Positions 1-32,989 of a stretch of DNA of 34,727 nucleotides are shown here, in pieces. Each line of letters opens with the position of its first letter. The stretch's first letter is position 1. A program made the position numbers and the translations under genes. Source of the DNA: Pseudomonadota bacterium (GTDB lineage: Bacteria; Pseudomonadota; Gammaproteobacteria; Steroidobacterales; Steroidobacteraceae); the NCBI GenBank assembly GCA_947453065.1, contig CANGFJ010000007.1, forward strand, positions 1 to 34,727, in the 5' to 3' direction. A model generated the notes under the pieces. It had not been told where the DNA came from and did not search any database. It saw only the letters and a program-made list of their open reading frames with translations.

Positions 1-1224
1 CACTACCAGGAAACACCGGGCGACATCTGGGACTACGACTCGGTCGCCGACATGATCCTGGCCGACCTCACGCTCAACGGGCAGGCGCGCAAAGTGCTCA
101 TGCACACGCCCAAGAACGGCTTCTTCTACAACCTCGACCGCAAGACCGGTGAACTGTTGTCGGCAGAGCCTTACGTGACAGGGATCAATTGGGCCCGTGG
201 CATCGACAAGAAGACAGGCCGCCCGATCATGAACCCGGCGGCCTGGTACGACTCGCTCAAACAGCCCTACACCGTGAGTCCCGGAACACCCGGCGGCCAT
301 GCCTGGCAGCCCACGGCCTACAGCCCGAAAACCGGCCTGGTCTACCTGCAGGCCACAGACAATTCGAGCACGCGCCTGATTCCGCGGCCCCGCTACGAGT
401 ATGTAAAGGGCCTCGACAACATCGGCATCTATCACTTCGCTGACCATGCGCCGGGTCAGGCTGCACCGACTCCGGATCCCAAAGCGCCGAAGCCCGCCCA
501 CCACCTGTTGGCCTGGGACCCGGTTGCACAGAAGGCCGTGTGGAAGACCCCCGGCATGGGCGGCGCGGTGCTGGCCACCGCCAGTGGCTTGGTGTTCCAG
601 GGCCACTCGCGCAATGTCGTCATGGGCGAACTGTCTGCCTATCGCGCCGACACCGGCGAGAAGATCTGGACGCATGAGACGCCCAATGCCATTGCAGGCG
701 GCGTCATCAGCTATGCCATCGACGGCGAGCAGTACATCCTCGCGACGACCGGCCAGGGCGGTAGCGGAATCATGGCCAGCACGCCGGATGTGCGTGCGCG
801 GCAGGTCGGTCGCCTGGTGGCCTTCAAACTCGGCGGTACCGCCACGCTGCCGGCCGATCCGCCACAGGCCGGTGCGCCGGTCATCGTGGCAGAAGCCTTC
901 ACGGCAGCCTCCGTCGAGCAGGGTAAGAACCTGTACCTCCTGCGCTGTGGCCGCTGCCATGGCCTCAACACGATGTCGGCCAACATCCTGCCCGACCTGC
1001 GCCGCTCGCCGACCCTGGCCAGCAAGGACACGTGGAGCGCCATCGTCGAAGACGGCGTGTTGCAGGGGAACGGCATGATTGCCTGGAAGCAGTACCTGCC
1101 TGCCGGCGGCGCAGAGTCGATCCGCGGCTACGTGGCAGGCCAGGCAAAGGTCGAAGCCGCGGCACTGGCTGCGCGCGTACCCCAGACAACTCCCGCCGTC
1201 GCACCGGCGCAGGCAAGCCGTTAA
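1..1224 (+). CDS. PQQ-dependent quinohemoprotein alcohol dehydrogenase, 3' part (5' end outside window)
   Basis: The frame is open from base 1, so the gene begins upstream; 407 codons remain. It encodes the second half of a type II quinohemoprotein alcohol dehydrogenase: an eight-bladed PQQ propeller fused to a cytochrome c domain, which oxidises alcohols in the periplasm and passes electrons to the haem. Visible signs are the active-site segment W-D-Y-D at bases 28-39, the segment AEPYVTGINWARGIDKKTG, and a haem c motif C-G-R-C-H at 946-960, followed by a short Ala/Pro-rich tail. The first Asp of W-D-Y-D corresponds to the catalytic base of the family. The Asp two residues later is the residue associated with lanthanide use in XoxF and PedH enzymes; calcium enzymes usually have Ala, Ser or Thr there. 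It is clearly homologous to the dehydrogenase at 16487-18640. The substrate cannot be deduced. Confidence 0.93.
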   Translation, partial: HYQETPGDIWDYDSVADMILADLTLNGQARKVLMHTPKNGFFYNLDRKTGELLSAEPYVTGINWARGIDKKTGRPIMNPAAWYDSLKQPYTVSPGTPGGHAWQPTAYSPKTGLVYLQATDNSSTRLIPRPRYEYVKGLDNIGIYHFADHAPGQAAPTPDPKAPKPAHHLLAWDPVAQKAVWKTPGMGGAVLATASGLVFQGHSRNVVMGELSAYRADTGEKIWTHETPNAIAGGVISYAIDGEQYILATTGQGGSGIMASTPDVRARQVGRLVAFKLGGTATLPADPPQAGAPVIVAEAFTAASVEQGKNLYLLRCGRCHGLNTMSANILPDLRRSPTLASKDTWSAIVEDGVLQGNGMIAWKQYLPAGGAESIRGYVAGQAKVEAAALAARVPQTTPAVAPAQASR

Positions 1225-16486: not shown

Positions 16487-18640
16487 TCAGCCGCCGTGCG
16501 GCGCAGGCACCGCGGCGGCCGGCGCGCGGGCCGGTGTCGCGCGCGGAGTCGGCGGGTGCTCCTTGGCATAGATGGCCTTGGACACCACATAGGCGCGGAT
16601 CGCCTCGGCGTCTTCCGGCTTGATCGCCTTGGCGAAGGACACCATGCCGTTCTTCGCCAGCGCACCATCGAGGACGATGGTCTTGAAGGCCTCGGCACTG
16701 TTGATGGCCCCGGCATAGCGCAGGTCAGGGAACATGCTGCTGCCACGCCCTTCGCCACCGTGACAGGTGCTGCAGAAGCGACCGTAGGTCTCTTCGCCGT
16801 GCTTGATCACCTCGGCCGAGCCAAAGGCCGCAGGCGGGTTGAGCACCTGCGCCGGGAACTCAACAACGTCCGGCAGCTTGGCCGTACCGCCGAGCTTGTA
16901 CACCAGCAAACGCGAGTAATTGGGCGCCCAGTAGCTGCCCGTCTGCCGGAAGCCACCCACCACGGCGACGAACTGCTCGCCATCGACTTCATACGTGACA
17001 GGCCCTGCCAGGGCACCGGTCTGCGTGTCGGTGCGCCACAGCTTCTCGCCCGTCTCGGCCTTGTAGGCCGCAAACTCATTCAGGGTATTGCCCGCGAACA
17101 CCAGGCCACCTGCCGTGGACATGGCACCGCCCGAACGACCGCCTTCCACCGGTGCCCGCCAGACTTCCTTGTTCGTGACCGGGTCAAAGGCCTGCAGGTA
17201 GCCAATGCTGATCTTCGGGGCATCCGGCCGCTGCGACATCTCGGCGCTCTTGGCAAAGCTGATCGACAGCTTCTGCCCCATCGGGTTGTCATCCTGCTTC
17301 GCAGCCACAAAGGCGTAGCTGCTCTGCGTCGTTGGAATGTAGGCAAAACCGGTGTTCGGGCTGAACGAGATCGGCTGCCAGGTGTGTGCGCCACCGTAGT
17401 ACGGGCTGACGAACGCGCCCTTGCCCGTCTTGCTGTAGTTGGCTTCGGGGTTCTTGATCGGCCGCCCGGTCTTCTTGTCGATGCCCTTGGCCCAGTTGAT
17501 GCCCTGCACGTACGGCTCGGCCGACAGCAGTTCGCCGGAGGCGGCATCGAGCACATAGAAGAAGCCGTTCTTCGGGGCCTGCATCAGTACATGGCGCGTG
17601 GTACCGCCGATGGGCAGGTCGGCCGTCATGATCTGGCTGACGTTGTCGTAGTCCCAGCTCTCGTTGGGCGTGGTCTGGTAGTGCCAGGCGTATTCGCCCG
17701 TGTCGATCTTCAGCGCCACGATCGAGGAGAGGAACAGGTGGTCGCCACCACCCGGCGCGCGGATCTCAGACGGCCACGGCGCACCGTTGCCCGTGCCGAC
17801 ATAGACCAGGTTGGTCTTCGGATCGAAGACGATGGAGTCCCAGGGGGCGCCGCCGCCGCCGGTCTTCCACCACTCGCCGCTCCAGGTCTTGGCGGCCATC
17901 TCCATCTGCTTGTTCTCGAAGCCATTGGCCGGGTTGCCCGGCACCACGAACCAGCGCCAGTCCAGCTTGCCCGTCTCGGCGTCATAGGCCGACAGGTAAC
18001 CGCGCTGCTCGAACTCCGAACCGCCCTGCCCGATCAGCACCTTGCCCTTGGCAATGCGCGGGGCGCCCGTGATGGCGTAGGGCTTGTCCTTCTCGATGGT
18101 GGAGACGTCCCACACGCTCTTGCCCGTGGCGGCATCGATGGCAATCAGGCGACCATCGATGGTGGCCAGGTAGACCTTGCCGTTCCAGGCCGCCACGCCG
18201 CGGTTCACGACGTCACAGCAGGCGTTGACGGCCCATTCGCCTGGCACCTGCGGGTCAAAGGCCCAGAGCGGCTTGCCGGTCTTGGCCTCGTAGGCGTAGA
18301 GCTTGCTCCAGGCCGTGGTGACATACAGCACGCCATCAACGATGACCGGTGTGGATTCCTGCCCGCGGCGCGTATCGAAGTCCGCAAACCAGGTCAGGCC
18401 GAGCTGGCTCACGTTGGCAGCCGTGACTTTGGTCAGCGGGCTGAAGCGCTGTTCGCTGTAGTCGCGGCCGTGGGACATCCACTGACCGACGTTGGCGGGT
18501 TCGTTAGCGGCCAGCAGGCGCGCCTCGTTGACCTGTGCGGCGGGCGCGGCCTTGGCGGCACTGGCCGCCTTGTCGGCGGACTTGCCGCAGGCTGACAGCA
18601 GCAGCACGGCACAGACAGAAGAAGCGATCAGACTACGCAT
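16487..18640 (-). CDS. PQQ-dependent quinohemoprotein alcohol dehydrogenase, lipoprotein
   Basis: A complete 717-residue type II quinohemoprotein dehydrogenase. The N-terminus is a lipoprotein signal (LLLSAC, lipid on C18), so it is probably membrane-anchored in the periplasm. The propeller has the repeated A-x-x-x-x-T-G-K-x-x-W tryptophan docking motifs and the vicinal pair C141-C142 (NACCDVV) that sits against PQQ. The active site W329-D330-Y331-D332 has an Asp two residues after the catalytic D330, the signature of lanthanide-type enzymes. The C-terminal cytochrome domain has C623-S-T-C626-H627 and ends in an Ala/Pro-rich tail. The ATG at 18640 has a GGGGG element about 8 bases upstream. 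It is transcribed alone, divergent from the flavin reductase operon (80-base gap), and ends at a strong terminator. It oxidises an alcohol or aldehyde; the substrate is unknown. Confidence 0.96.
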   Translation of the reverse strand: MRSLIASSVCAVLLLSACGKSADKAASAAKAAPAAQVNEARLLAANEPANVGQWMSHGRDYSEQRFSPLTKVTAANVSQLGLTWFADFDTRRGQESTPVIVDGVLYVTTAWSKLYAYEAKTGKPLWAFDPQVPGEWAVNACCDVVNRGVAAWNGKVYLATIDGRLIAIDAATGKSVWDVSTIEKDKPYAITGAPRIAKGKVLIGQGGSEFEQRGYLSAYDAETGKLDWRWFVVPGNPANGFENKQMEMAAKTWSGEWWKTGGGGAPWDSIVFDPKTNLVYVGTGNGAPWPSEIRAPGGGDHLFLSSIVALKIDTGEYAWHYQTTPNESWDYDNVSQIMTADLPIGGTTRHVLMQAPKNGFFYVLDAASGELLSAEPYVQGINWAKGIDKKTGRPIKNPEANYSKTGKGAFVSPYYGGAHTWQPISFSPNTGFAYIPTTQSSYAFVAAKQDDNPMGQKLSISFAKSAEMSQRPDAPKISIGYLQAFDPVTNKEVWRAPVEGGRSGGAMSTAGGLVFAGNTLNEFAAYKAETGEKLWRTDTQTGALAGPVTYEVDGEQFVAVVGGFRQTGSYWAPNYSRLLVYKLGGTAKLPDVVEFPAQVLNPPAAFGSAEVIKHGEETYGRFCSTCHGGEGRGSSMFPDLRYAGAINSAEAFKTIVLDGALAKNGMVSFAKAIKPEDAEAIRAYVVSKAIYAKEHPPTPRATPARAPAAAVPAPHGG

Positions 18641-20000: not shown

Positions 20001-22010
20001 GTGCGAAAGGCAGCCCTGACGATGGTGGCTGCCCTGCTGCTGGCGGCCTGTTCAGGCAACAAGCAGGCTGCCACCACCCCGGCTGCCAGCTGTGACCGGG
20101 CCTGTCTGGAATCTCTGATCGACCGCGTGTTGGCGGGCATGCTCGCCCACGATGCCGGCACGCTGCCCACCACGGCCAACTTCCGTTACATCGAGAACAA
20201 CCAGCCGCTCCGGGCAGGGGAAGGCAGCTGGAAGACGCTGCAGTCCTTTGGCACGTACCGCCACTATTTTGCCGACCCGGAATCCGGCAACGCCGCCCTG
20301 ATCACGACGATGCAGGAAAACGACGGCCAAGGGCTCTTCACGCTGCGCATCAAGGCAGTGGGCGGCAAGCTGGCCGAGGCCGAGGCCATCGTCACCCACG
20401 ACCCGCTCGGGGCTGCCCGCTACGCCAGGCTGGGAAAGCCTGCCGATGCCTGGCTGGAGTCCGTACCCGAAGACGAGCGGATGACGCGCGAGGCCCTCGC
20501 GGCGACGGCCAACAAGTATTTCGGATCGATCGAAAACAACGACGGCAAGGGCGACTATTCGTTTTTCGACGACGACTGCAACCGACTCGAACATGGCCTG
20601 AAGACCACCAACACTGCGCCGCAGAAGTACGGCCATTCCAGCGACACGACGTTTGTCACCCTCGGCTGCCGCGGGCAGTTTGAAACCGGCTTTCTGGGCT
20701 TCGTCACACGGGTCCGCGATCGTCGTTACGAGGTCATCGATGGAGAACGAGGCGTGGTGTTCAGCATCGCCCCGCTCGACCACGACGGCACGACCCGCAG
20801 CCTGCCGCTCACCAACGGCAAGACCTTCAAGGTCCCGACGTACTTCTCGGCCTCACGCACTTTGCAGGTCGGCGAAGCCTTCCGCGCCCGCGACGGCCGT
20901 ATCACCGACATCGAAATGACGCTGCATGAGTTCCCCTACGGCATGCGTACCGGGTTCCGCTCGACCTTCGATCCCCCGCTGGATGTGCCGGGTGGCGAGG
21001 CACCGGAACCCGGCAAGGCCTGCGACAGCAGCTGCCTGGAAAGCCACATCGACCAAGTGGCCGGCGCCATGGCAGCGCATGATCCGAAGCGCGCGCTGTT
21101 GGCCGATCGGCTTCGCTATACCGAGAACGATCAGCTGCTCGCCGTGGGTGATGGCCTTTGGGGCACGCTCACCGACCTGGGCAGCTATCGCATCCACGTC
21201 GCCGACGCGACCAGCGGCCAGGTCAGCCTGCTTGCCCGCGTCACCGAAACAGACCTACCGGGCCTGTTGTGGTTGCGGGCGCGCGTCGTGGGTGGTCGTG
21301 TGACGGAGGTCGAGGCCACCGTGGTCCGTGAGGAGCGACCCAGCGCCGAGGAGCTGTTCCGTCCCCGCCAGCCCGTGGAAGCAGAGCCAGCCGCGCTGAA
21401 CAGGGCCGAGCCCTTGCTGACACAGCCTGTGCCGCCTGCGCAGCGCGCCGAGCGCGAGCAGCTGCTCACGATCGTGAACCGCTATTTCGATGCGCTGGAA
21501 CAAGGCCAGGGCGGCGATGTGCCCTTTACCGCCGATTGCCTCCGCCGTGAGAACGGCGTCACCGTGACACAGAACCCGGACCTGCCGCGTCCGACTGCCA
21601 AGGGTCGCGATCCCGGCGAAATGCAGTGGGAGATCGCCGCCTCTGGCGAAGTGCCCAGACAGACCTTCAAACCCTATGCGCTGGACTGCGGCACGCAGCT
21701 CAACAGCGGCTACTCGGCCTACATCGGCCGCATCCGCGACCGGCGCGCCCGGGTCACCGATGAAGAACGCGGGCTGATCAGCGTCACCGCCTATTACGAC
21801 ATTCCCGGAACGGTACGGACGTTCACCAGCAAGTCGGGGGTGGTGACCACGCTTCCGCCCGTGCTGGGACGCCCCTACACGCTGGCCACCCAGCAACTGT
21901 TCCGGATCGTTGGCGGAGAAATCCAGCGCATCGAAGCGCTAAACAAGGTGCAGCCCTACGGCGCGCGCCCGGCCTGGGTCAGTAACCACAACGCCCTGCT
22001 TCCTCATTGA
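20001..22010 (+). CDS. Lipoprotein with two tandem copies of an uncharacterised domain (DUF8021-like)
   Basis: This 669-residue protein starts with GTG and a lipoprotein signal (LLLAAC, lipid on C17). The mature part consists of two homologous halves, residues about 31-333 and 341-669. Each begins with CDxxCLESxID and continues with HD, RYTEN/RYIENN, GxGxWxTL, a Tyr-rich ADPxSG or ADATSG strand, an L-R-x-K/R-V-x-G-G element and an aromatic-rich N-R/K-Y-F start of a second subdomain, then IRDRR or VRDRR, D-E/G-E-R-G, and PYG near the end. The same domain occurs once in the protein at 25139-26056. From memory it resembles the domain catalogued as DUF8021, known in fungi and bacteria without assigned function; the second part of each unit looks like an NTF2/SnoaL cone. 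The stop overlaps the TonB receptor start (TTGA), suggesting a lipoprotein working with that receptor. Confidence 0.85.
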   Translation: MRKAALTMVAALLLAACSGNKQAATTPAASCDRACLESLIDRVLAGMLAHDAGTLPTTANFRYIENNQPLRAGEGSWKTLQSFGTYRHYFADPESGNAALITTMQENDGQGLFTLRIKAVGGKLAEAEAIVTHDPLGAARYARLGKPADAWLESVPEDERMTREALAATANKYFGSIENNDGKGDYSFFDDDCNRLEHGLKTTNTAPQKYGHSSDTTFVTLGCRGQFETGFLGFVTRVRDRRYEVIDGERGVVFSIAPLDHDGTTRSLPLTNGKTFKVPTYFSASRTLQVGEAFRARDGRITDIEMTLHEFPYGMRTGFRSTFDPPLDVPGGEAPEPGKACDSSCLESHIDQVAGAMAAHDPKRALLADRLRYTENDQLLAVGDGLWGTLTDLGSYRIHVADATSGQVSLLARVTETDLPGLLWLRARVVGGRVTEVEATVVREERPSAEELFRPRQPVEAEPAALNRAEPLLTQPVPPAQRAEREQLLTIVNRYFDALEQGQGGDVPFTADCLRRENGVTVTQNPDLPRPTAKGRDPGEMQWEIAASGEVPRQTFKPYALDCGTQLNSGYSAYIGRIRDRRARVTDEERGLISVTAYYDIPGTVRTFTSKSGVVTTLPPVLGRPYTLATQQLFRIVGGEIQRIEALNKVQPYGARPAWVSNHNALLPH

Positions 22011-25138: not shown

Positions 25139-26056
25139 TCAGCGCTTGTCGGGCTTCGTGGTCCAGGGCGACAGGTTGTAGTACGGCGCCCCGATAAAGG
25201 TTGCCTGCACGCTGACGATGCTGTCGTTGCGGACCTTGAAGCTCTCGAGGAACGACCAGGTGTGCGGCTCGCGGAACACCGACCGCTGCGGCGTGCCATC
25301 GGTCAGCGTGTATTCGTCCAGGACGCCCTTGTGGTCGATGTGGCCGCGGGCCATGACGACCTGACGCTCTTCGTCGACCAGGAAAAAATCGCGGTCGCGC
25401 ACGCGCTCGTTGAAGCGATAACGGCCCGATTTGAAGCCCTTTTCAATCTCGGCGAACTTCAGCCCATTCTCGTAACGAAGGGCCTCTGGCGTGAAGCGCG
25501 TACCACGGATCTCGCCATCGTTGTGCTGCAGGGTCGAGAAATAGCCGTTCGCATGGGCAATCAGCCGTGCCCGCGAAATGCGTTCTGCCACCGGCACGAT
25601 GCGGGCGAAATCCGGGTCGGGCTTGAACTCGCGCACGTCGCCGATCGGGGTCGGCGGCGCGCTCAGGTTCCGCTTGGTCGAAATAATGTGCTCGACTTCG
25701 GTGATCTGCCCGCCCTGCACTTTCAGCCGCACCGCCAGGAAACCCGGCGTGTCCTTTTGCAGGATCGAGGTATAGATGCCGACGTTGCCCGTCTTCGTGT
25801 CCGACAGCGTCAGCGCCGGCCCGACCTCTTCGGTGACGGTGTCCCAGGTGGCGTCCGGGAACGACATCTCGACGTTGTTTTCGGTGAAGCGCACGTGCCG
25901 GGCAAACGGCGCGAGCTTCGGGTCGTGCTTGACGTAGGCGGCACGGTACTGGTCAGCGATGCCTTCCAGACAGGCCTTGTCGCAGGCGGGGGCCGCCTGC
26001 AACGAGGAGATCGAGGCCAGTAGCGCAAGCGGAATGAACTTGAACAGCTGTTGCAT
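25139..26056 (-). CDS. Exported single-domain relative of the duplicated lipoprotein (DUF8021-like)
   Basis: This 305-residue protein has a classical signal peptide (cleavage near SLQAA) without a lipobox. The mature part matches one unit of the duplicated lipoprotein at 20001-22010: CDKACLEGIADQYRAAYVKHDPKL, VRFTENN, TWDTVTEEVG, FLAVRLKVQGGQITEVEHII, then LIAHANGYFSTLQHNDGE, VRDRDFFLVDEERQVVMARGHIDHKG and a closing TFIGAPYY. It is probably a periplasmic binding or catalytic protein; no function is known to me. It starts 27 bases after the stop of the MFS carrier gene, with GGGGA before the ATG, so the two are probably co-transcribed. That context suggests a role with small aromatic or organic acids (inference). 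Confidence 0.82.
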   Translation of the reverse strand: MQQLFKFIPLALLASISSLQAAPACDKACLEGIADQYRAAYVKHDPKLAPFARHVRFTENNVEMSFPDATWDTVTEEVGPALTLSDTKTGNVGIYTSILQKDTPGFLAVRLKVQGGQITEVEHIISTKRNLSAPPTPIGDVREFKPDPDFARIVPVAERISRARLIAHANGYFSTLQHNDGEIRGTRFTPEALRYENGLKFAEIEKGFKSGRYRFNERVRDRDFFLVDEERQVVMARGHIDHKGVLDEYTLTDGTPQRSVFREPHTWSFLESFKVRNDSIVSVQATFIGAPYYNLSPWTTKPDKR

Positions 26057-30612: not shown

Positions 30613-31014
30613 ATGGGTTCCACGTCGACGCTCGACCGCCGCACCTTCCTTGCTGCCACCGCATCGCTGACAGTAGGCAGCTGCCTGCCAGCCAGCGTGC
30701 TGGCTGCCATGCCCCTGTCCCCGGCACTCTTTGTCTGCGACCGCCGTTTCACTGGCAGTCTGGCGCGGGCCGACGTACACGCCACAGTGACCTACATCGA
30801 CGGCGACGTCACTGCGCTCTGGCGCGACCAACTGAGTGGGTTGTGGCAGAACGGCACCGCCAGCGTCAGCGGCCTGACCCAACCCGCTGCCCTGTTCTGC
30901 CTGGAGCAACTGGCCCGAGGCCACGGACGCAGCGTTTCGGCACGCCACACAGTGGCCGGCACCGACGCCATTGCCTGGGTCATCTCACCCGTTTCACCGC
31001 GAGGGTTCCTCTGA
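30613..31014 (+). CDS. Small Tat-signal exported protein preceding the flavoprotein
   Basis: A 133-residue protein with a twin-arginine leader, L-D-R-R-T-F-L-A, and a hydrophobic stretch ending near SVLAA. The mature part is about 100 residues with no family I recognise, containing FVCDRRFTGS, VTYIDGDVTALWRDQLSGLW and FCLEQLARGHGRSVSARHTVAG. A GGGGG ribosome binding site lies 7 bases before the ATG, and the stop shares its A with the flavoprotein start (TGATG). P. putida p-cresol operons also contain a small extra gene, pchX; similarity to it is not shown here. Because the flavoprotein has no export signal, this protein may be its export partner (inference) or an assembly factor. Confidence 0.7.
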   Translation: MGSTSTLDRRTFLAATASLTVGSCLPASVLAAMPLSPALFVCDRRFTGSLARADVHATVTYIDGDVTALWRDQLSGLWQNGTASVSGLTQPAALFCLEQLARGHGRSVSARHTVAGTDAIAWVISPVSPRGFL

Positions 31015-32669
31015 TGCGCATTCCCACCGGCGTCAGCGCTGCTGATTTTTCCGCCGCCCTGACCGCGTTCACGCGGGTCGTCGGGGCCGAATGGGTCTTT
31101 ACCAGCGATGCGGACGTGGACCTGTACCGCGATGCCTATTCACCGCTGGCTGGCCAGCCGGATGAACGCCGTGCCTCGGCGGCCGTGGCCCCTGCGAATG
31201 CGGAACAGGTGCAGGCCGTCGTGCGCATCGCCAACCAGTACCGCATTCCGCTGTATGCGATTTCCACCGGCAAGAACCTGGGCTATGGCGGCTCTGCACC
31301 GGCCTATACCGGCAGTGTCGTGGTCGACCTCAAGCGCATGAACCGCATCATCGAGGTGGACGAGGCCAACGCCAGCGTGCTGGTAGAGCCCGGTGTCAGC
31401 TACTTCGACCTCTACAACCACCTGCGCGCCATCGGCTCGAAGCTGTGGATCGATTGCCCGGATCCGGGCTGGGGCAGCGTCGTGGGCAACGCCATTGATC
31501 GCGGTGGTGGCTACACGATGGCCAACTACCGCAATCACTTTGAATCCCATTGCGGCATGGAGGTGGTGTTGCCCGATGGCGAGCTGCTGCGCACTGGCAT
31601 GGGCGCCATCCCGGGATCCAAGACCTGGCAGCAGTACAAGTCGGGCTGCGGCCCCTGGGTCGATGGCCTCTTCTCGCAGGGCAATTACGGCATCGTCACC
31701 AAGATGGGCTTCTGGCTCATGCCCGAGCCCGAGGCCTTCCTGCGCTGCACTGTCCGCGTGCCGCGCTACAAGGACCTGATCCCGCTGGTCGACACGCTGA
31801 ACTACCTGGAAAACAGCCGCATCGTCACCGGCTTTCCGGATCTGGCCACGCCGCTGCTGGGCTACCCGCCCACGGGCCAGGTGCAGCTGTACATCGAAGG
31901 CACGGCCGCCTATCCGATGACCGATGAACACAAGGCGCTGCTTGCCAAGGCGGACCAGGGCTACTCACCGGAGCTTGAGGCCTATGGCCTGGCGCACGAC
32001 ATCCCGTACTGGGAGTTGTGGGTGTCGTACTACGGACCACCGGAGGTCATCGACGCGCAGTGGCAGGCCTCCCAGCGCCGCTTTGCGAAGATTGCGGGTG
32101 CGCAGTTCAAGGTCATCGACCGGCTGACCATGCCGGTGGACCTGACGAAGATCGATGACTACCACGAGCCGGAGCTGGGCGTGCCTTCGCTGCGCGCCTT
32201 CTCGATCGGCGCGCGCACGCCCTACAACCCCAGCCCGTCCAAGGGACACATGTGGTTTTCTCCGATCATCCCCCGCACGGGCGAGGCGATCTTCGAGGCC
32301 AACCGGGTGTTCAGCGCGGCGGCCAAAGAGCTGGGCATGCCCTTGTTCCAGACCTTTTCGATGCCGGCCTGTTTCTGGGAACGCTCGTTTATCTTCATTT
32401 TGGCCACGCCGGTCACCACCGACCCGGCCACTAACCGCAAGTACCTCGCCGGCTTCAAGAAGCTGATCGAGATTGGCGGGCAGCATGGCTGGGGCGAGTA
32501 CCGCACGGCCCCGGTGTTCCAGGAATCGGTCATGGACGTGTATTCGTTCAACAACCACGCGCTGCACCGGTTCCACGAGACGCTGAAAGACGCCATTGAC
32601 CCGAAGGGCATCCTCTCCCCCGGTCGTTACGACATCTGGCCGCGCCACCTGCGCAAGAAGGCACCATGA
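31014..32669 (+). CDS. 4-cresol dehydrogenase/vanillyl-alcohol-oxidase family flavoprotein subunit
   Basis: A 551-residue FAD enzyme of the VAO/PCMH family, which oxidises para-substituted phenols (p-cresol, eugenol, vanillyl alcohol). The FAD-binding loop ISTGKNLGYGGSAP (about residues 81-95) is near-diagnostic. Also seen are VLVEPGVSYFDLYNHL, GSVVGNAIDRGGGYT, KGHMWFSPIIPRTG and the ending ALHRFHETLKDAIDPKGILSPGRYDIWP, as in p-cresol methylhydroxylase and eugenol hydroxylase. I cannot assign the covalent FAD residue. There is no signal peptide, although related flavocytochromes are periplasmic. It overlaps the Tat-protein stop and its own stop overlaps the cytochrome start (ATGA). The exact phenolic substrate is unknown. 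Confidence 0.95.
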   Translation: MRIPTGVSAADFSAALTAFTRVVGAEWVFTSDADVDLYRDAYSPLAGQPDERRASAAVAPANAEQVQAVVRIANQYRIPLYAISTGKNLGYGGSAPAYTGSVVVDLKRMNRIIEVDEANASVLVEPGVSYFDLYNHLRAIGSKLWIDCPDPGWGSVVGNAIDRGGGYTMANYRNHFESHCGMEVVLPDGELLRTGMGAIPGSKTWQQYKSGCGPWVDGLFSQGNYGIVTKMGFWLMPEPEAFLRCTVRVPRYKDLIPLVDTLNYLENSRIVTGFPDLATPLLGYPPTGQVQLYIEGTAAYPMTDEHKALLAKADQGYSPELEAYGLAHDIPYWELWVSYYGPPEVIDAQWQASQRRFAKIAGAQFKVIDRLTMPVDLTKIDDYHEPELGVPSLRAFSIGARTPYNPSPSKGHMWFSPIIPRTGEAIFEANRVFSAAAKELGMPLFQTFSMPACFWERSFIFILATPVTTDPATNRKYLAGFKKLIEIGGQHGWGEYRTAPVFQESVMDVYSFNNHALHRFHETLKDAIDPKGILSPGRYDIWPRHLRKKAP

Positions 32670-32989
32670 GACAGTCCGTGCTGTTGCTCGCCATGGCGAT
32701 CGTCCCGACAATGGCCGCCTCGGCGGCGAGCCCCGATGGGGCAGCCGTCTATGACAAATGGTGTGCCCCCTGCCATGCCCCCGGAATCTCGCATCCCGGC
32801 ACCCAGGCGCTGAAAGCCAAGTACCCGGGCGAGTGGCAGGGTGTGCTGCGTGACTGGAAGGAACTGACCCCGGACTATGTGCGACTGACCGTCCGACAAG
32901 GCATCTCGGTGATGCCGCATTTTCGCAAGACCGAGATCAGTGACGCCGAACTCGACGCACTGGCCCGCTACATCGCAAGGAAGCCCTGA
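32666..32989 (+). CDS. Cytochrome c subunit of the flavocytochrome (PchC-like)
   Basis: A 107-residue protein with a signal peptide (cleavage near AASA) and one haem c motif C33-A-P-C36-H37. M83 in the segment ISVMPHFRK is the likely axial ligand. This is the size and pattern of the small cytochrome that accepts electrons from p-cresol methylhydroxylase or eugenol hydroxylase flavoproteins. It starts within the flavoprotein stop, so equal production by translational coupling is likely, and its stop overlaps the following gene (TGATG). A separate soluble acceptor role is also possible. Confidence 0.93.
   Translation: MRQSVLLLAMAIVPTMAASAASPDGAAVYDKWCAPCHAPGISHPGTQALKAKYPGEWQGVLRDWKELTPDYVRLTVRQGISVMPHFRKTEISDAELDALARYIARKP

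Follow-up and report, generated by a model that had tools for sequence, protein, structure and literature searches.

How a flavoprotein that carries no leader can come to stand beside an exported c-type cytochrome is the question raised by this locus. C-type cytochromes receive their haem in the periplasm, where the flavoprotein would meet its partner. Among related enzymes, PchCF was given as periplasmic although PchF has no predicted signal peptide, and for the pair BpfAB a predicted Sec/SPII signal was described on BpfB and none on BpfA, with PchCF and PcmIG alike (PMC12724174, citing Hopper, 1985). No explanation of PchF export to the periplasm was found in the open literature searched. 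The window analyzed here, i.e., the whole stretch of 34,727 nucleotides from a genome of the Steroidobacteraceae, features a small gene, hereafter X, directly before the flavoprotein gene. With a probability of roughly 80%, X is regarded as a dedicated Tat hitch-hiker, or escort, for PCMH-type flavoproteins, which is probably released afterwards.

The Locus and Its Gene Products

The features of the window on which the argument is based are the following:

30613 to 31014, forward strand: X, small Tat-leader protein of 133 aa, proposed flavoprotein export escort (PchX-type family)
30613 to 30705, forward strand: predicted Tat leader of X, residues 1–31, DRRTFLA plus hydrophobic stretch (from sequence)
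30706 to 31011, forward strand: X body, predicted small alpha/beta domain (AF2)
31012 to 31016, forward strand: TGATG overlap of X stop and flavoprotein start (from sequence)
31014 to 32669, forward strand: leaderless PCMH/VAO-type flavoprotein (FAD_binding_4, E 9e-34; PDB matches)
32666 to 32989, forward strand: partner cytochrome of the c-type, N-terminus signal-like, haem motif CAPCH (by reading)

The X reading frame starts with ATG, 5 nt downstream of GGGGGA. Its N-terminus, MGSTSTLDRRTFLAATASLTVGSCLPASVLAA, presents a twin-arginine motif, after which D, E, K, R, H, N and Q are absent for 32 residues. Searches with X returned a sub-threshold TAT_signal match only in Pfam (E 0.11), no match in NCBIfam and a top match of only E 0.4 among PDB sequences. 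Together with the reading frame and the motif, this bears out the sequence-only reading of an unrecognized 133-residue Tat-leader protein with overlapping stop and start codons. The body is modeled confidently by AF2, with pLDDT of 84–97 (ten-residue means, residues 41–130). The fold was considered as a clue to function and set aside, as the best Foldseek match (E 6e-3) and the best match via VIA (Z 7.1; IF3-C/Alba/TusA-like arrangements) are below a telling level.

The flavoprotein begins with MRIPTGVSAADFSAALTAF, in which no leader is seen and the longest run free of D, E, K, R, H, N and Q counts 9 residues (in 45 residues); the earlier assignment as a protein without signal peptide agrees with this N-terminal reading. 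It is similar over its full length to solved PCMH/VAO enzymes, since residues 3–549 match 9h40, the pinoresinol hydroxylase of Pseudomonas sp. and closest solved relative by sequence (E 2e-210), while 1dii follows at E 6e-77. Likewise, the cytochrome had been taken as an exported partner, and its N-terminus does read as signal-like. The genes are ordered X-flavoprotein-cytochrome with overlapping stop and start codons. The TGA of X (31012–31014) and the ATG of the flavoprotein (31014) have one base in common, an overlap that suggests translational coupling. The genome of the window contains two further X genes, each adjoining another PCMH flavoprotein; a flavoprotein on contig C80 has no X adjoining, and those on C1 and C99 are located at contig ends.

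X Proteins as One Divergent Family

According to their sequences, the X proteins form one divergent family, for which neither Pfam nor NCBIfam has a dedicated model. A motif [RK]R-x before a hydrophobic stretch is kept in all 49 members taken from relatives by homology alone, i.e., 57 matches minus eight weaker or doubtful ones, the latter including two own-leader flavoproteins of L061 and two matches without leader (L124, L125). The stricter RR-x-[FLIVMYW] occurs in 108 of 114 X proteins, 65 of which were chosen partly by their leader, and 21 of 64 members match the Pfam TAT_signal model at E ≤ 0.1. The leader as the only common feature of the family was ruled out by an iterated profile which was seeded with the window protein and from which leaders were removed: it was joined by 108 of 123 X proteins, the P. 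putida protein of L178 included, and matched none of 615 shuffled decoys. On 13,036 ORF segments of the first two sets, this leader-free profile gave 104 matches, 101 of them to known X proteins and the other three to remnants of X or to X genes truncated at a contig end. When the leaders were retained, 121 of the 123 joined, so that 15 are placed outside the leader-free profile and two outside even the full one. The profile set left out the spurious candidates of L138, L211, L214 and L203 as well as L157 (no readable leader) and L148 (contig end); those of L138, L211 and L214 were rejected on reading, the automatic pick having taken ORFs inside the flavoproteins.

The family diverges fast. 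The window X is 43% identical to its counterpart in genome G006, compared to 85% for their flavoproteins. In Pfam and NCBIfam searches with 64 members, Tat-leader models matched many of them, other families were matched weakly by one or two members, and no cofactor-binding family was found.

Co-occurrence and Linkage With Flavoproteins

Among 98 relatives, X was found with a 64-row profile in 25 of 28 genomes with a flavoprotein and in none of the 70 others (Fisher p 2.4e-20, a value which ignores kinship), the profile having been built partly from X genes of these same genomes. The three exceptions comprise G007, whose flavoprotein carries its own Tat leader, G034, a draft of 82% completeness in 610 contigs, and G042, with the flavoprotein at a contig end. 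When the 98 relatives were searched with the single sequence, 24 genomes yielded a total of 43 X-like places, 35 of which are no more than 1.2 kb away from a flavoprotein. No flavoprotein is present in four of these genomes (G068, G080, G081, and G093), and their matches (E 0.003–0.007) were not confirmed by the profile. Linkage and co-occurrence together rule out a chance neighborhood of X and flavoprotein.

As a control, 398 genomes were drawn across the phylum, that of the window included. Thirteen match P. putida PchF at E ≤ 1e-40 and nine match the X profile; one profile match, in G125, was rejected as X, being a leader match only in a protein that reads like an alpha/beta hydrolase, with no flavoprotein. 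All eight genomes with full-length PchF matches, that of the window being one of them, have X adjoining at least one flavoprotein; within these eight, the flavoprotein of L239 has its own leader, and L242 has neither X nor cytochrome nearby. In the five genomes with partial PchF matches only, neither X nor a CxxCH ORF was found on either strand of the surrounding stretches.

An alignment scan of genome contigs for PchF-type loci yielded 537 confirmed loci, the best 80 of which were evaluated. X adjoins the flavoprotein in 68 of these best 80 of 537, mostly in the order cytochrome-X-flavoprotein, e.g., in P. putida 31753 (L178), Aromatoleum, Halomonas, Nitrosomonas, and one Geobacter draft. Among the 68, L148 and L183 are truncated at contig ends, and L157 features a body without readable leader; these three incomplete loci were counted after X bodies had been found, and L204 and L217 by leader and position only. 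Nine flavoproteins of the best 80 carry leaders of their own (L138, L205, L207, L209, L211, L212, L214, L215, and L216), and no X was found within about 3.5 kb on each side of them. Neither X nor a leader on the flavoprotein was found in L203 and L206, and L213 runs into the end of its contig. Both features together occur in none of the best 80 of 537 loci (Fisher p 3e-10, which ignores kinship); the nine own-leader loci are not independent events, since eight of them belong to the Sphingomonadales.

Plasmids provided 33 matching records, of which 21 were read; the other 12 are seven further Roseomonas records, equal in identity to the Roseomonas record that was read, and five that closely resemble others in the set. 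X adjoins the flavoprotein in 14 plasmid loci (L126–L132, L134–L136, L218, L219, L222, and L226), with X of L128, L131 and L135 joining the profile only with the leader kept and X of L219 and L222 called by leader and position. The flavoprotein of L224 has its own leader. Loci L133 and L220 contain a cytochrome and neither X nor own leader; the actinobacterial L137, L221 and L225 likewise have neither, and no cytochrome is annotated beside them. An N-terminally short flavoprotein gene is immediately preceded by an IS5 transposase gene in L223 (Paraburkholderia aromaticivorans pBN3), and the sister plasmid pBN2 has X at the place of this transposase gene. In L102 and L112, X is divergent from the flavoprotein gene instead of running in the same direction. 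No cytochrome gene was found near the X-linked L129, L132, L234 and L235, the latter two being without a CxxCH ORF; the association of X with the cytochrome is thus a loose one.

Flavoproteins Without Adjoining X

The relatives contain 83 flavoprotein segments, comprising 46 that adjoin X (two of them divergently), two with their own leader and 35 with neither. Of the last group, 12 are near contig ends, one has its full context and no cytochrome, and 22 have their full context and a cytochrome. A survey of whether the small gene always accompanies leaderless flavoproteins had been proposed in the sequence-only reading. X usually does adjoin them, but the 22 cytochrome-linked flavoproteins without it count against the escort reading. 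As 21 of these 22 reside in genomes with X elsewhere, and as orphan X genes exist for which the stretch read holds no flavoprotein gene (L243–L250, L119–L122), X may serve in trans. Most of the orphan-X genomes also hold flavoproteins without neighboring X. A broader role can be put forward tentatively, at somewhat less than even odds: X as a general, released Tat escort of VAO/PCMH proteins which recognizes the folded flavoprotein, so that export depends on assembly, with one X, orphans included, serving several paralogues in trans. Besides, the X-less flavoprotein-cytochrome pairs of L018, L057 and L059 have nearby a gene for a Tat-leader protein, which from its sequence looks like a carotenoid/lignostilbene oxygenase.

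Own Leader Versus X

The relation of both features was followed on a FastTree tree of 181 flavoproteins, from whose alignment the leaders were left out (not included: L213, L223, L133, L220, L227–L231, L242, pieces with fewer than 380 aligned residues). X adjoins 133 of these flavoproteins, 13 have their own leader and 35 have neither; no X adjoins any of the 13. The own leader corresponds to four parsimony changes, or three if the rows with neither feature are ignored. In independent pairs, X never changed in the same direction as the own leader; the sign test (median p 0.25), and with it the relatedness-corrected comparison, is not significant because there are only four pairs. In the aligned N-termini of the 133 X-linked flavoproteins, the longest stretch free of D, E, K, R, H, N and Q measures 6 residues at the median and 20 at most, compared to at least 16 in 12 own leaders. 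Upstream of the aligned flavoprotein starts, own leaders were found only at the named own-leader loci.

The closest view of a switch is offered by L061, whose own-leader flavoprotein is 78.5% identical to the leaderless one of L014, which has X. The leader of the L061 flavoprotein and that of the L014 X are 49% identical, and the X profile has no match in the genome to which L061 belongs (G007). Two genomes with own-leader flavoproteins, G058 and G398, possess X elsewhere. Since X adjoins leaderless enzymes and is absent beside those with their own leader, its most likely function is the export of the flavoprotein. Such switches, in which nature has exchanged a trans-acting escort and a cis leader, represent ready-made swap experiments.

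Predicted Contact of X and Flavoprotein

The X and flavoprotein genes of L090 share a reading frame. With the stop codon translated as glycine, they yield a chain of 756 residues with a linker of about 15 residues, which was modeled by AF2 with a fused alignment (A7) whose X rows were shortened at the C-terminus; a previous alignment (A6) was dropped because the C-termini of X-only rows slid into flavoprotein columns. The model reached a pTM of 0.85, a value for a single chain with no control pairing, compared to own estimates of 0.67–0.75 for an unplaced and 0.84–0.90 for a placed X. The read-through model would thus place X on the flavoprotein, in support of a predicted contact.

Proposed Export Mechanism and Alternatives

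Read from sequence, the proposed escort function is based on the Tat-type leader of X, the leaderless flavoprotein, the unity of the X family, its linkage to and co-occurrence with flavoproteins, and the lack of X beside own-leader flavoproteins. According to the proposed mechanism, X would be synthesized beside the flavoprotein, the stop and start codons of the two overlapping in the window, and its alpha/beta body would bind the folded flavoprotein in the cytoplasm. The twin-arginine leader of X could then take the pair through the Tat translocase, and in the periplasm the flavoprotein would meet its separately arriving cytochrome. X would probably be released thereafter, as PCMH is described as consisting of flavoprotein and cytochrome subunits only. 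Piggyback transport by Tat had already been suggested in the sequence-only reading and gains support from co-occurrence, adjacency and the exclusion with own leaders; the co-translocation itself, the folded state in transport and the release of X can be inferred from these.

A different function, which appears improbable though worth weighing, is that of a periplasmic assembly or maturation factor, e.g., in flavin attachment or cytochrome docking; X would then pass through Tat by itself, and the flavoprotein would cross the membrane otherwise. Covalent flavin attachment in PCMH needs the cytochrome, and X is linked to the genes of both subunits in varying order, which is in line with such a factor. 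Nevertheless, own-leader loci keep the cytochrome gene (9/9 in the best 80 of 537) and have no X beside the flavoprotein (13/13), which would be expected with export, and not with assembly, as the task of X. Moreover, the leaderless flavoproteins showed no export signal of another kind.

It is less probable still that X, instead of being a released escort, remains bound to the flavocytochrome, be it as third subunit or as membrane anchor. The precedent is the small subunit of bacterial FAD-glucose dehydrogenase (FADGDH), a Tat hitch-hiker that stays in the complex (PMC9727119), and the body of X, for which a folded state and a place on the flavoprotein are predicted, would suit such a role. 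By contrast, an alpha2beta2 composition, with flavoprotein and cytochrome as the subunits, has been described for the P. putida enzyme (PMC13416013), and PDB sequences gave leader-like or weak matches only to the X profile (best E 0.005). The own-leader loci, too, manage without adjoining X.

A folded flavoprotein could hardly ride with a cytochrome that has a Sec-type signal and receives its haem in the periplasm. Guidance of the flavoprotein by the cytochrome signal peptide, with X being incidental, is therefore very improbable, even though it was proposed for BpfA and BpfB on the basis of a signal peptide predicted on the cytochrome only (PMC12724174); the signal predicted there is of the Sec type. 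On the matching plasmid of S. yanoikuyae SJTF8, moreover, the cytochrome gene is immediately followed by a gene that encodes a Tat leader.

Relation to Known Systems

The escort function proposed for X would concern the gene pchX, positioned between pchC and pchF of Pseudomonas putida and without known function. In P. putida 31753, the gene at this position (L178:2773–3459), between cytochrome and flavoprotein, encodes an RR leader, and its product joins the X profile with the leader removed. It differs from the window in the gene order, which is X-flavoprotein-cytochrome in the latter, and in length (229 aa versus 133 aa of the window X).

The hitch-hiker principle as such is known. In Escherichia coli PaoABC and HybOC, leaderless subunits are exported piggyback by a Tat-leader subunit, which was demonstrated for PaoABC with deletions of tatC and of subunits (PMC4273604). 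PaoA, however, is an Fe-S subunit of the finished enzyme, whereas X members match no cofactor-binding family. The small subunit of FADGDH (PMC9727119) resembles the proposed escort in that it is small, is required for Tat export and accompanies an FAD dehydrogenase with a c-type cytochrome partner, but it stays in the enzyme, while X is proposed to be released. The Pfam family of this small subunit was matched by none of 64 X proteins. Its cargo belongs to the GMC family and not to VAO/PCMH.

The flavoprotein on plasmid pF1 of S. yanoikuyae SJTF8 is called identical to BpfA in PMC12724174. The Tat-leader gene that follows the cytochrome gene on pF1 should, by synteny, correspond to orf5017, which is part of the complementing cluster but not of the E. 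coli construct; orf5017 was not found mentioned in the main text of that paper. The body of its product does not join the leader-free X profile.

No paper on both pchX and pchF was found in the open literature, papers with the word pchX being on other subjects by their titles, and none of the titles found there points to Tat export of PCMH. As far as this search extends, the X family, its breadth and the answer to PchF export appear to be new. A definite escort would settle how PchF, without a predicted signal peptide, reaches the periplasm. In addition, expression of flavoprotein and cytochrome alone may miss a needed gene, which matters for enzymes acting on lignin phenols, cresol, and bisphenol.

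Other Genes in the Window

Two PQQ dehydrogenases with C-terminal cytochrome c domains are encoded at 1–1224 (forward strand) and 16487–18640 (reverse strand); they fit a periplasmic oxidation cluster. The products of 20001–22010 (forward strand) and 25139–26056 (reverse strand) have no Pfam match and read like repeats of one domain starting with CDxxCLE. The former contains two copies of this domain, and its gene overlaps the next one, encoding a TonB-dependent receptor, by 4 nt.
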